Program-made: the position numbers and the translations under genes
Part shown: positions 59,296 to 63,169 of the stretch, one piece after another
How the letters are laid out: the number at the start of each line of letters is the position of its first letter
How positions within the stretch are numbered: the first letter of the stretch is position 1
Origin: Anaerolineae bacterium
GTDB lineage: Bacteria; Chloroflexota; Anaerolineae; Aggregatilineales; Ch27
Length of the DNA stretch: 63,169 nt
NCBI GenBank assembly: GCA_013178165.1
Contig: JABLXG010000020.1
Coordinates: 1 to 63,169, forward strand
Direction: 5' to 3'
The notes under the pieces: model-generated
Database searches by the model: none
Told to the model about the DNA's origin: nothing
The model's input: only the letters and a program-made list of their open reading frames with translations

Positions 59296-59964
59296 TCACT
59301 GCCCGGCTTGTACTTCGCTTGCTGCTCGGCCCAGCACAGCACGCAGCCGCCCTTCCAGCTCGGCCAGCATCAGGGCCGTCGCCCCCCAGACCACCTGCCC
59401 GGCCACGTCGTAGTAGGGCACGCGGCAGCGCACCCCCGCCAGGATCATCTCCTGCTCGCGTTTGCGGGCGTCATCCAGCAGATCGGCCAGCGGCAGTTCC
59501 AGCAGGCCGACCACCTCCGTCGGATTGGGGTGGAACGCTGGCCGTTCCGCCAGCACGCCGAGGACCGGCGTGACCACAAAACCGCTGGGCGGGATGTACA
59601 CCGCGGCCAGTTCGCCCAGCACCCGCACCGCCGCCGGGAGCAGGCCGATCTCTTCGTATGCTTCGCGCAGCGCGGCGGCAACGGGCGAGCCATCACCCGG
59701 TTCCAGCGCCCCACCGGGGAAACCAATCTGCCCGGAATGGACGCCGGGATCAGGGGCGCGGCGGATCAGGACGGTCGTCAGGCCGTCGTCCGCCGGGTAG
59801 ACCGGCACCAGCACGGCGGCCTGGCGGGTCAGAATATCAGGCGGAAGTGCCGTGCGGCGCAGATTGGGGATCAGGTGCATGGGCTGCCGCGCCGCCTCTA
59901 CATCAAAGCCGGGCAGGCGGAGGGCCGCTTCCAGCACAGACAGGGGGATGACCAGCCGGGGCAT
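59296..59964 (-). CDS. CoA diphosphatase-type Nudix hydrolase
   Basis: A 222-residue enzyme. VLIRRAPDPGVHSGQIGFPGGALEPGDGSPVAAALREAYEEIGL is the CoA-pyrophosphatase (NUDT7/NudL-type) signature, combining the UPF0035 HSGQxxFPGG motif with the Nudix box. It cleaves CoA to 3',5'-ADP and 4'-phosphopantetheine. ATG is 15 bases after the PCMT-like stop, so the two are likely cotranscribed; whether this serves CoA turnover or the neighbouring E1/E2 genes is unknown. Confidence 0.88.
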   Translation of the reverse strand: MPRLVIPLSVLEAALRLPGFDVEAARQPMHLIPNLRRTALPPDILTRQAAVLVPVYPADDGLTTVLIRRAPDPGVHSGQIGFPGGALEPGDGSPVAAALREAYEEIGLLPAAVRVLGELAAVYIPPSGFVVTPVLGVLAERPAFHPNPTEVVGLLELPLADLLDDARKREQEMILAGVRCRVPYYDVAGQVVWGATALMLAELEGRLRAVLGRAASEVQAGQ

Positions 59965-59979
59965 GGGAGGATGGGACTA

Positions 59980-61194
59980 TCAGGCGCGAGGCCGGGGTTG
60001 CACCCAGAGCGTATAGGTATGCGCCGGGCGGACGAACACGCGGGTCAGCGCGTCCCGTTCTGGCGGCAGGTAATGGCGCTGCCCAGCGGGGGTGATGTAC
60101 AGCCGGAAGTCGTCAAAGTCGGGCCGCCCGGCGGCTTCCCACTCATGGGCCAGATCGGACAGAATCAGGTAGGCGTCGCTGCTGCCGTAAGTATGCACGA
60201 CCCGCATGTCGCCATAAGGGACCAGACAGGCGCTGGTGGGACTCATGATCCCCCAGCCAAACAGCTCCAGGCCATAGGCCAGCTGGCCTTCCTCCACGTG
60301 GTAGGTGATGAAGGCATAGCCAGGGGGTTGCCGCAACAGCATGTAGTAGCTGAACAGGCCCAGGTTGTACTGCTCCAGTTCCAGCGGCAACTGGGCGATC
60401 TCGTGGCCGGTGGAGAGCAACGCCTGGATGACAGCCTCATCCAGACCGGGGCTTTCCCCAAAGTCGACCACCAGCGACGAGCCGGGTACGCGGGTCTGGC
60501 GATCCGGCCCGGCGGCGCTGCCCTGAATGAGCAGGAAAGCAGGCGGGAAGAGCTGGGCGCTTTCCAGCGCTCCGGTCGCCAGGCGGCGCAACGCCGCGCC
60601 GATCTGAATGCGGCCAAAGCTCAGCGGCACGACCAGCAGGCCGCCAACTTTGAGCTGGGCCACCCAGGCCGCCGGGATGTCCCACACGCTGACGGCGGAG
60701 ACAATCCGATCGTAAGGCGCATGGGGCGCGTACCCCTCCGCGCCATCCTGAGCCAGCACGGTGACGGCGGGGTAACCGGCACGCTCCAGATGCGCCTGAG
60801 CCGCTTCCGCCAGGTCCGGGAGCAGTTCCAGCGTGGTCACGCGCCCTGCCGGGCCGACCAGCTCGGCCAGCAGGCCGGTGTTATAGCCGCTGCCGGTGCC
60901 AATTTCCAGCACATTATGGCCCGGCTGGATATCAGCGGCGCTGAGCAGCACTGCCAGGACAGACGGGCGCACCGAGCCGCTAACCGGCATCCCGAATTTG
61001 TCACGCCGGATCACGATCGGCTCGTCGCTGTAGACGGCGTCCAGGTTGACGCCCGGCACAAACAGATGGCGTGGCACGCGCTGGAAGGCCTGCAACACTG
61101 CCGGCGAGAGCGGTGTGCTGGCCCGCCGCACAATTGCCTCCACCAGGGCGGCGCGGCGCTCGTCAATCGAGTGTGGGGAACCGTGACCGATCAT
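59980..61194 (-). CDS. PCMT-like methyltransferase with long C-terminal domain
   Basis: A 404-residue SAM-dependent enzyme. Residues 1-215 match protein-L-isoaspartate O-methyltransferase (PCMT): FQRVPRHLFVPGVNLDAVYSDEPIVIRRDKFGMPVSGSVRPSVLAVLL and VLEIGTGSGYNTGLLAELVG (SAM motif I). The ~190 C-terminal residues (YHVEEGQLAYGLELFGWGIMSPTSA to THTYTLWVQPRP) are not in housekeeping PCMT. Similar fused methyltransferases exist in peptide-modification clusters (FxLD/RiPP-type), but no precursor peptide was found here. It overlaps the Pro-rich gene by 32 bases and lies upstream of the Nudix gene. Confidence 0.82.
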   Translation of the reverse strand: MIGHGSPHSIDERRAALVEAIVRRASTPLSPAVLQAFQRVPRHLFVPGVNLDAVYSDEPIVIRRDKFGMPVSGSVRPSVLAVLLSAADIQPGHNVLEIGTGSGYNTGLLAELVGPAGRVTTLELLPDLAEAAQAHLERAGYPAVTVLAQDGAEGYAPHAPYDRIVSAVSVWDIPAAWVAQLKVGGLLVVPLSFGRIQIGAALRRLATGALESAQLFPPAFLLIQGSAAGPDRQTRVPGSSLVVDFGESPGLDEAVIQALLSTGHEIAQLPLELEQYNLGLFSYYMLLRQPPGYAFITYHVEEGQLAYGLELFGWGIMSPTSACLVPYGDMRVVHTYGSSDAYLILSDLAHEWEAAGRPDFDDFRLYITPAGQRHYLPPERDALTRVFVRPAHTYTLWVQPRPRA

Positions 61195-61543
61195 GGACCT
61201 CTACTGTTCTGCCGGTACAACCCGGCGGCGCATACCAGGCCCGGCGCTTGCGCAGGCTCATACCGGCCTCAGTCTCCTCGCGGCGGGTGGTGCGTACACG
61301 CCCGCGCGAATCGATATGAATCTGGCCGGCCTGCTGCAGCCGGGCGAATTCCTCCGGGGAGATGGCCGGGGCCGGTTCCCCGCCAAGCCGTTCCAGGCGG
61401 CGGGCCATGGCCTCGTCGTCGCTGGCGGCGTCCGGAGCAGGCGGGGTTGTCGCGTCGGCTGGCGCGGGGCCAGGGGCGCCCGAAGCGGGCGGCTGCTCAT
61501 CCGCCGGTGGGTTCGGCAGGTTGCGATCCTTGTCCTCTGCCAT
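61163..61543 (-). CDS. Pro-rich protein of unknown function in the E1/PCMT cluster
   Basis: A 126-residue protein. The first ~45 residues are Pro/Ala-rich and disordered (NPPADEQPPASGAPGPAPAD). The rest has a short helix (AMARRLERLGGEPAPAISPE, EFARLQQAGQIHIDSRGRV) and a basic end (SLRKRRAWYAPPGC). I recognise no fold. Its ATG follows the E1 stop by 2 bases and its 3' end overlaps the methyltransferase start by 32 bases, so it belongs to this operon. It could be a substrate or adaptor of the E1/E2 pair; that is only inference. Confidence 0.6.
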   Translation of the reverse strand: MAEDKDRNLPNPPADEQPPASGAPGPAPADATTPPAPDAASDDEAMARRLERLGGEPAPAISPEEFARLQQAGQIHIDSRGRVRTTRREETEAGMSLRKRRAWYAPPGCTGRTVEVHDRSRFPTLD

Positions 61544-61545
61544 GC

Positions 61546-62466
61546 TTAGCTTTCTCCGTCCTGTACTTCCGCTTCCTCGTAATGAATCCCGGAATCGCTC
61601 AACAACTGATCCAGGCTCAACTCACCTTCAGCAGCTTCTGCTTCCTGCAGGCGCCCGCGATGACTGCATTCCAGGCAGGCAGGGTCGCGGGCGATGGTGA
61701 TCCATTCAGCGCCATAGGGTGGCGTGATCCGGCCCTGGAAGATCTCCAGCGGCCGGTTGGCCAGGATCACGGTATTGCCTGGCATGCGGCGGTACTGATC
61801 TGTGCCCTGTAGCAACTCGTTGAGCGCCAGATCGGCCTGCACAGAGGCCACCCGCACCACATGCAGCCACAGGCCCGGCTCGGCCTCCAGAGTGCCATCC
61901 GGCCCGATCATACCATAATCAAGCTCATCCGCACCGGGGTCCACCAATCCTTCGCGGACATCATCGGCCTAGCAGGCGTAGCACGGGCTGGCTTCGTCGC
62001 GGGGGTTGATCACCACCACATCGCCGCCCTCGCCCCGTTCATAGACACCGGCATAGACGGCGGTCAGGCCACGGGCCAGGCAGGCTTCGTTGATCAGATA
62101 CTTGACCCGCTCGCCATCCACCCCAACAACGACCAGGTCCACGCTATTGAGGGCGTCAAAGTGCTGCTCGATGCGGCCACGGATGGCCGTCACCTCGGCG
62201 TCGGCGTTACGAGCGCGAATCAGATCGGCGACGGCCTCCACTTTGGGGCGGCCCACGTCGCGCAGATCGCCCACATGGCGCACCACGTTAACGCTCTCCA
62301 GCAGGTCGTCGTCGATCAGGACAAAGCGCCCGACGCCACTCATGGCCAGGCTCTCCGCCACGAAGCCGCCGCCGGAACCCAGCCCGACAATGCCAACCGT
62401 GCGTTTGTGCAGGTAGTCCAGCGCCTCCTTGCCCAGCAGGCGCTCAATGCGATCCCAGGCGGTCAT
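61546..62466 (-). pseudogene. ThiF/E1-like activating enzyme split by one in-frame TAG
   Basis: The two open frames 62466-61969 and 61947-61546 are one frame: codon 166 (61971-61969) is TAG, and the frame continues ADDVREGLVDPGADELDYGM. Upstream half: GIVGLGSGGGFVAESLAMSG (ATP-binding GxGxxG), IDDDLLESVNVVRHVGDLRDVGRPK, and the first Cys pair in PCYAC. Downstream half: the second Cys pair in DPACLECSHR. E1/ThiF proteins bind Zn with two CxxC pairs, which here lie on opposite sides of the stop. A TGG (Trp) codon at this place would restore CYACWADD, the usual sequence. Start follows GGTGAGGAACC. Confidence 0.85.
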
Positions 62467-62503
62467 GGTTCCTCACCTCTGCTCGATCCTGACTCTCTAT
62501 ACG

Positions 62504-62611
62504 CTAAACGCCCGACGCTGGATGCAGGGGGAAAGCGCACTTGCCACAGGAGAGGCAAGCTGCCACGCCTGCGGGTACGACTTTTCCCGGCGGCGAACCA
62601 GCCGCCTTCAC
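62504..62611 (-). CDS. Tiny CxxC ORF coupled to the E2-like gene
   Basis: A 35-codon frame starting with GTG that overlaps the E2-like stop (GTGA). It reads VKAAGSPPGKVVPAGVAA, then CLSCGKCAFPLHPASGV. One CxxC plus a third Cys. No ribosome-binding site beyond coupling. It could be a degraded zinc ribbon, a peptide product or chance. I list it because its position between E2 and E1 is where a Ubl or small partner gene would be expected; low confidence. Confidence 0.3.
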   Translation of the reverse strand: MKAAGSPPGKVVPAGVAACLSCGKCAFPLHPASGV

Positions 62612-63057
62612 CCTTCATCGGTCGCCTGAGCGCCCGGCGCGGGGCTGCTGGCCGCGGGGCCACTGAGGGCGGCTTCCACCGCCCGTACCAGTTCCAGCAG
62701 CGTGCGCTCCGCCGTCCAGGGCAGGTCGGGCGTCTCCTGGGCGGTCAGCGGGCGCGATTCGGCCCACAGCCGGGCGAACATATCCTCACTGTCCTGCAGC
62801 CTGAGCATCGGGGCGATCCGCACGGTTGGCGGCGTGGCCGGATAATTATAACCGGTGATCAGCAGCAGGACGTGATCGCCGCCCATCCGCCCGACCAGAA
62901 AGCAGATCTCCAGCGGCGGGCGCTGGTCGGCATCCCACTCGGTGATGCTGACGGCCAGCCCGTCGCCGGTTAACAGGTCATATTCCGCCTGGAAGCGCTC
63001 GCGGTCGGCCAGATGCCAGCCCAGCGGCGGCATGGCCGGCAACCAGGGCAATCGCAT
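62608..63057 (-). CDS. E2-like (UBC-fold) protein, 5' end cut by the IS
   Basis: About 149 residues remain. The core resembles bacterial E2/RWD domains: HLADRERFQAEYDLLTGDGLAVSITEWDADQRPPLEICFLVG (N-terminal helix and first strands), GYNYPATPPTVRIAPML (the YPxxPP motif of UBC proteins) and a C-terminal helix TLLELVRAVEAAL. No Cys sits at the usual catalytic place after the YP motif, so a degenerate or non-catalytic E2 is possible. The first codons (MRLPW) are encoded by the inverted repeat of the right-hand IS, so the native start is lost or replaced. It lies upstream of the E1 gene on the same strand. Confidence 0.65.
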   Translation of the reverse strand: MRLPWLPAMPPLGWHLADRERFQAEYDLLTGDGLAVSITEWDADQRPPLEICFLVGRMGGDHVLLLITGYNYPATPPTVRIAPMLRLQDSEDMFARLWAESRPLTAQETPDLPWTAERTLLELVRAVEAALSGPAASSPAPGAQATDEG

Positions 63058-63061
63058 CAAA
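63043..63061 (+). repeat. Left terminal inverted repeat (IRL) of the right IS copy
   Basis: CCAGGGCAATCGCATCAAA, matching the left-end IS repeat (110-128) at 17 of 19 positions in inverted orientation. It lies 44 bases before the transposase ATG and inside the 5' end of the E2-like gene, marking the insertion point. Confidence 0.8.
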
Positions 63062-63104
63062 AGTGCTGATAGGGAATAATAGGATGCCTCTAACCAGGAG
63101 GCAC

Positions 63105-63169
63105 TATGTCAGACGAAAACCCGATCAGCTTACTCATCAGTTTTCGGGACCTGCCCGATCCCCGAGTGG
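63105..63169 (+). mobile_element. ISAs1-family transposase, N-terminal end (partial)
   Basis: ATG at 63105 after AGGAGG. The first 21 codons read MSDENPISLLISFRDLPDPR then V, matching the ISAs1-family N-terminal motif (FxDLPDPRV). It runs off the window. Orientation is the same as the left-end copy at 1-114. Confidence 0.8.

Follow-up and report, generated by a model that had tools for sequence, protein, structure and literature searches.

The stretch of Anaerolineae bacterium DNA analyzed here, contig JABLXG010000020.1 of 63,169 nucleotides (hereafter the window, or C20), ends in the 3′ half of a ubiquitin-like conjugation operon that is complete and conserved in the lineage elsewhere, and its copy has been broken by an insertion sequence (IS) and a nonsense codon. 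We put the probability of this reading at about 75%. Of this, we observed the gene layout, the identity of the domains, the IS together with its target duplication, the stop codon and the conservation across the order Aggregatilineales (Anaerolineae, Chloroflexota; NCBI taxonomy). The source genome measures 4.19 Mb and is 98.6% complete. On the minus strand of the window a fragment with a UBC-type fold is followed by an E1-like gene, a gene for a small Pro-rich protein (ProR), a PCMT-like methyltransferase and a Nudix hydrolase. The consensus layout in intact relatives is zero to three membrane proteins, E2, JAB-UEV, E1, ProR, an optional PCMT and Nudix.

A JAB-UEV gene divided between two contigs

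An intact copy is found in the genus sister (G001, contig JAIOAT010000008.1), where two membrane proteins of 269 and 310 amino acids (aa) are followed by E2 (156 aa), JAB-UEV (351 aa), E1, ProR, PCMT and Nudix. The 5′ half in the window's own genome is the end of another contig, C40, which carries two membrane genes, E2 and the first ~207 residues of JAB-UEV; identity to the sister is 99% for this E2 and 97% for this part of JAB-UEV. The window fragment aligned with residues 209-350 of the 351 aa protein of the sister at 92% identity. It encodes, at 62611-63043 on the minus strand, the C-terminal domain of JAB-UEV, a UEV/RWD-type domain (an inactive E2 fold) that in the intact protein spans residues ~207-351; the stop codon is at 62608-62610, and the 5′ part of the gene was lost to the IS.

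The fold of this domain was examined with a separate model, the match list of the whole JAB-UEV model being filled by the JAB domain. Modelled alone with AlphaFold2, the window fragment reached a predicted local distance difference test (pLDDT) score of 90.4, and its best structural matches according to VIA-align were Tsg101 UEV domains (Z 9.8, 108 residues, 3.7 Å), with nearly all further matches being UBC, UEV or RWD chains. Foldseek alone gave no match of the UEV domain under E 0.001. The sole invariant cysteine of the domain, Cys52, is located in the second strand, whereas the active site of E2 follows the fourth strand; the window domain thus has the UBC-like fold without catalytic cysteine that characterizes UEV/RWD proteins.

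The other half of the protein folds as an MPN domain. The whole-protein model (pLDDT 89.5) matched Rpn11 and Caldiarchaeum Rpn11 with Z 15.4, and the Glu, first His, Ser and Asp of the JAB metal motif are invariant. Most lineages have HKQP at this motif (residues 121-124 of the protein encoded at L064:7125-8177, minus strand); HKHP occurs in family f7, in G033 and in the outgroup G121. When the His/Gln state was placed on the tree, three changes sufficed; several branches are long and the direction of change is unsure.

The initial annotation, made from the window alone, had placed an E1-like gene next to a UBC-fold sequence on the minus strand, and both the Pfam ThiF match of the former and the predicted UBC/UEV fold of the latter bear this out. 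Its description of 62608-63057 as an E2-like gene stands for the type of fold and fails for the gene: from the sister match and the structure, the region is the C-terminal domain of the 351 aa JAB-UEV gene, which rules out an E2 gene at this position. It had also reported that no JAB gene is present, but a JAB domain is the N-terminal part of the same gene and lies on C40. Its further points, that the operon is truncated by an IS and that missing genes lie beyond it, are supported, as the IS begins at 63044 and the 5′ half was found at the other IS end.

Insertion and decay of the window copy

One end of a 1.21 kb ISAs1-type IS occupies 63044-63169 on the plus strand; the matching other end is at C40:23887-24012, and the genome holds several copies. 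The ends are inverted repeats beginning CAGGGC, in which 16 of 18 bases match. A 9 bp target-site duplication, GTTGCCGGC in the operon sense, lies at 63035-63043 (minus strand), and its second copy stands on C40 beside the other IS end. With this sequence at both junctions and inverted repeats at the IS ends, a single simple insertion has split the gene without any deletion: the ISAs1-type element entered JAB-UEV between the JAB and the UEV domain. The transposase contains the domains DDE_Tnp_1_assoc (3e-29) and DDE_Tnp_1 (1e-21). The ISAs1 family is marked by a DDE transposase with an associated domain, terminal inverted repeats and a target duplication of 8-10 bp, and the element shows all three, its duplication being 9 bp long. 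The 1.21 kb ISAs1-type element is found at both ends of the window contig (1-127 and 63044-63169).

The second lesion is a TAG codon at 61969-61971 (minus strand), residue 166 of E1, where the sister has TGG for Trp. This Trp is invariant in the E1s of 31 relatives, and on this ground we reject the idea that the TAG is translated as an unusual amino acid. Outside the lesions, the ratio of nonsynonymous to synonymous substitution rates (dN/dS) relative to the sister was 0.02-0.06 for E2, JAB and E1, indicating strong purifying selection, so that the breakage looks recent. The UEV part gave a higher dN/dS of 0.25. This is no evidence of relaxed selection, because UEV is less conserved than JAB between intact relatives as well (64% versus 77% identity between G001 and G002).

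The window copy might still be functional if the TAG were a strain variant, a sequencing error or read through and the JAB half worked without the UEV half. The strong purifying selection on E1 apart from its stop would fit such a copy, as would a JAB domain complete to ~residue 207. Nevertheless, the operon carries two independent lesions, the residue lost to the stop is an invariant Trp adjacent to the zinc-type cysteines and the start of the UEV half is gone, so we consider a working copy very unlikely. The window copy is a recently broken operon, dead or dying.

Distribution

E2 was found in 105 of the 121 genomes of the order, and in 80 of the 83 good ones; in families f3, f5 and f6 of Aggregatilineales the system was not found. 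A survey across the phylum, for which 251 genomes were drawn, gave a match outside the order in three genomes only (G121, G140 and G180). The E2 match of G180 was rejected as a member, as it adjoins a nucleotidyltransferase-like protein in the manner of the cyclic-oligonucleotide-based antiphage signaling system (CBASS). There, at L171:9564-11065, a CD-NTase-type nucleotidyltransferase-like gene directly precedes a small E2 gene, forming a CBASS-like pair. The match of G140 (L170) is similar in score and is possibly such a pair likewise.

Among 80 related loci, some of which are short, E2 and JAB-UEV were counted in 80, E1 in 77, ProR in 57, Nudix in 41, PCMT in 26 and membrane proteins in 26. 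The neighbors are therefore conserved, and not E1 alone; Nudix in about half of the loci and PCMT in about a third are not random neighbors.

E1 and E2

The E1-like adenylating enzyme of the ThiF family is encoded at 61546-62466 on the minus strand (306 codons and a stop, with the one in-frame TAG), as determined from the Pfam ThiF match (E 9e-32) and the read-through translation. Owing to the TAG, the listed open reading frame (ORF) is under-called, and the protein would have 306 residues if read through. Its structure matches were UBA5, ThiF, MccB and MoeB (1e-18 to 1e-20). Like UBA5, ThiF, MoeB and MccB it combines an adenylation domain with a CxxC...CxxC motif of the zinc type, but these two CxxC pairs hold its sole invariant cysteines, and it carries a C-terminal SLxxL tail.

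The real E2 is the separate gene next upstream of JAB-UEV, which in the window's genome lies on C40. Its profile match was 2.9e-14 and its structure matches to UBE2L3 were ~3e-5. The invariant catalytic-type cysteine, Cys96, stands within HQFEDGQLCLF, and nowhere is the locus more conserved than at and around this cysteine. The best family matches of both enzymes were the E1 and E2 profiles of CBASS. A ThiF-type E1 and an E2 with an invariant catalytic-type cysteine are both features of E1-E2-JAB systems in the broad sense, and the operon of the intact relatives most likely encodes a pathway in which E1 and E2 conjugate a modifier and to which a JAB is linked; judging from these domains, it would work like an E1-E2-JAB pathway.

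The SLxxL tail is shared with the membrane proteins. Within the last 60 residues it was present in 46 of 54 membrane proteins (L064:8782-10586 and relatives) and in 68 of 77 E1s (in the window at the E1 C-terminus, 61546-61640), compared with 15 of 1426 other ORFs; the sequences are related, so that the contrast is informative rather than a basis for a P value. The strict form SL[DESQN][DEQN]LL, in the last 40 residues, occurred among 6479 ORFs only in membrane proteins (60) and E1s (10). This shared tail suggests a common docking partner, through which E1 would be brought to the membrane.

Evidence weighing against a conjugation operon

Several observations count against the reading given at the outset. 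The IS and the TAG are known from one draft genome, and both contig joins were deduced from the match of their ends rather than sequenced through. The second metal His of JAB is replaced by Gln in 68 of the 80 loci, including the lineage of the window, and is His in 10, so deconjugation may have been lost in the lineages with Gln. E1 has no conserved thioester cysteine, unlike ThiF or UBA5. Finally, the modifier was not found among the linked genes (7 kb, 80 loci), and neither ThiS/MoaD nor YukD tracks the system.

Several of these points would suit proteins that no longer conjugate, with E1, E2 and JAB-UEV forming a binding or peptide-modifying assembly in which, for example, E1 adenylates a peptide C-terminus in the manner of MccB, with PCMT and Nudix as partners. 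In addition to the missing E1 cysteine and the replaced JAB His, the presence of MccB among the structure matches of E1 and the relation of PCMT to peptide-maturation methyltransferases, although below cut-offs, agree with this. However, the conservation at the locus culminates at the E2 cysteine, and PCMT is absent from most loci, and we judge such an assembly unlikely. A conjugation operon, broken in the window, remains the preferred reading.

Comparison with known systems

Of the types checked, neither Bil nor type II CBASS nor any of types 6a-6e of Iyer has this layout, and membership of a named type is not claimed. In type II CBASS, too, E1, E2 and JAB are encoded together without a gene for a ubiquitin-like protein (Ubl), with Cap2 being an E2-E1 fusion and Cap3 the JAB. 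In contrast, E1 and E2 are separate genes here, JAB is fused to UEV and the distribution is order-wide, not patchy; neither a CD-NTase nor an effector gene was present in the operon according to the gene lists and ORF clustering, and there was no E2-E1 fusion.

Bil (BilABCD, bacterial ISG15-like) resembles the present operon in its separate E2, JAB and E1 genes in one operon. It is defined by a BilA Ubl with tandem ubiquitin-like domains in the operon (PMC11354881), and no such Ubl is conserved within 7 kb in the 80 loci. The JAB-UEV fusion, the membrane, ProR and Nudix partners and the single short adenylation protein (~306 aa) as E1 differ from Bil as well, and the contrast to the Bil layout drawn in the initial annotation is supported. 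Type 6d of Iyer 2006 likewise has separate E2, JAB and E1, but it encodes a Ubl beside them, and here there is none. Type 6e contains an inactive E2/RWD-like domain within the operon; its composition, however, is a polyUbl and a JAB-E1 fusion, with the RWD-like domain alone or fused to the polyUbl, whereas here JAB is fused to RWD/UEV. Bub operons are ubiquitination-like bacterial operons of the same broad kind, and Bub loci have been described with immune regulators (PMC13373217).

The operon of G121, a distant system from another class of Chloroflexota (L169), shows similarities: its JAB precedes a UEV-like region, its E2 and E1 genes adjoin and membrane proteins are encoded nearby; but its JAB protein (813 aa) has extra regions, its E1 is extended at the N-terminus and no ProR or Nudix was found. 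At L169:3083-13673 it comprises a VWA membrane protein, the 813 aa JAB protein, E2, the extended E1 and more membrane proteins, with a radical-SAM gene upstream. No earlier Chloroflexi operon of such a layout was found in the open-access literature searched; subscription papers were mostly outside this search, and a prior description is possible.

ProR, PCMT and Nudix

As the initial annotation had it, the Pro-rich, PCMT and Nudix genes come after E1, in accordance with the gene order and the Pfam matches. ProR is encoded at 61163-61543 (minus strand) and usually stands directly downstream of E1. Its Pro-rich N-terminus is variable and, from the alignment, its most conserved part is the C-terminal region ending SLRKRRAWY, after which only 0-3 residues follow in 47 of the 57 loci with the gene. 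ProR and E2 were both present in 101 genomes, both absent in 14 and mismatched in 6, a co-occurrence for which shared descent makes any P value too small.

PCMT, at 59980-61194 (minus strand; Pfam PCMT E 4e-38), is an optional member, and Nudix, at 59296-59964 (minus strand; Pfam NUDIX E 9e-15), a frequent one. The PCMT-like protein is related to the peptide-maturation methyltransferases of FxLD and ATP-grasp systems, below the cut-offs (217 versus 320 bits). A block of ProR, optional PCMT and Nudix was observed away from E2-JAB-E1 in several genomes (L173, L176-L180 and L182). Where ProR is not beside E1 it sits with PCMT and/or Nudix elsewhere, indicating that the locus consists of two modules that are usually together, and ProR may belong to the PCMT/Nudix module.

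The modifier and a proposed mechanism

When all ORFs within 7 kb were clustered over the 80 loci, no Ubl gene, nor any further gene, was conserved. The suggestion in the initial annotation that a Ubl could lie upstream of the IS did not hold, and this candidate is ruled out, the upstream genes in intact relatives being E2 and membrane proteins.

ProR itself, which has no recognized Ubl domain, is a tentative candidate: E1 would activate it and hand it to E2, and it would end up on targets in the way that the CD-NTase does in type II CBASS. Its usual position directly downstream of E1, its co-occurrence with E2 and the conserved C-terminus with a short variable tail would suit a modifier, and a non-Ubl modifier has a precedent in CBASS (PMC10097602). 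The end of ProR, however, is not Gly, whereas conjugation in CBASS mostly needs a C-terminal Gly, most substitutions of which abolish it (PMC10097602). Moreover, ProR away from E1 travels with PCMT and/or Nudix, and a small number of events on the tree may underlie the co-occurrence.

The modifier could instead be a Ubl of the ThiS/MoaD kind, encoded away from the locus and shared with the biosynthesis of cofactors. Such sharing occurs in SAMPs of archaea and URM1 of eukaryotes, and E1 is related to UBA5, ThiF and MoeB. ThiS-family genes were present in 60 of 61 genomes searched, a near-ubiquity that is uninformative, as genomes without the system have them just as often and they are not linked to it. 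The other unlinked candidate, YukD, is absent from the window's genome and the sister and stands beside a different E1 in several relatives. YukD is thus unlikely as the modifier, and one of the ThiS/MoaD kind appears doubtful. A YukD-type Ubl gene and a second E1-like gene, unlike that of the operon, lie no more than ~3 kb apart in G016:C160, G021:C324, G036:C66, G019:C162 and G039:C300, and the two probably form a separate system.

For the mechanism in intact relatives, we infer the following course. From its family membership, E1 would adenylate the C-terminus of the modifier, which would then pass to the invariant E2 cysteine directly or via a non-conserved residue, a choice proposed because E1 has no conserved catalytic cysteine. 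E2 would transfer the modifier to a target, probably at the membrane, since E1 and the membrane proteins of the operon share the docking-tail-like SLxxL. The modifier or E2 would be held by the UEV domain. The JAB domain, in lineages with an intact metal site, would act on the modifier by processing or removing it. Tentatively, we picture an order-wide, housekeeping-like E1-E2-JAB/UEV pathway, whose modifier would not be a beta-grasp Ubl but ProR or another resident protein, and which would be tethered to the membrane via a private SLxxL.

Implications

Known bacterial ubiquitin-like systems are mostly patchy defense cassettes with their own Ubl. The present set of E2, JAB-UEV fusion and E1 is close to universal among the families sampled from one order, and no Ubl is linked to it; this suggests a resident role in the cell and directly raises the question of which protein is conjugated to which target. 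In eukaryotes, deubiquitinases and inactive E2 variants are usually different proteins, so their fusion here bears on how the modules of such systems were combined.

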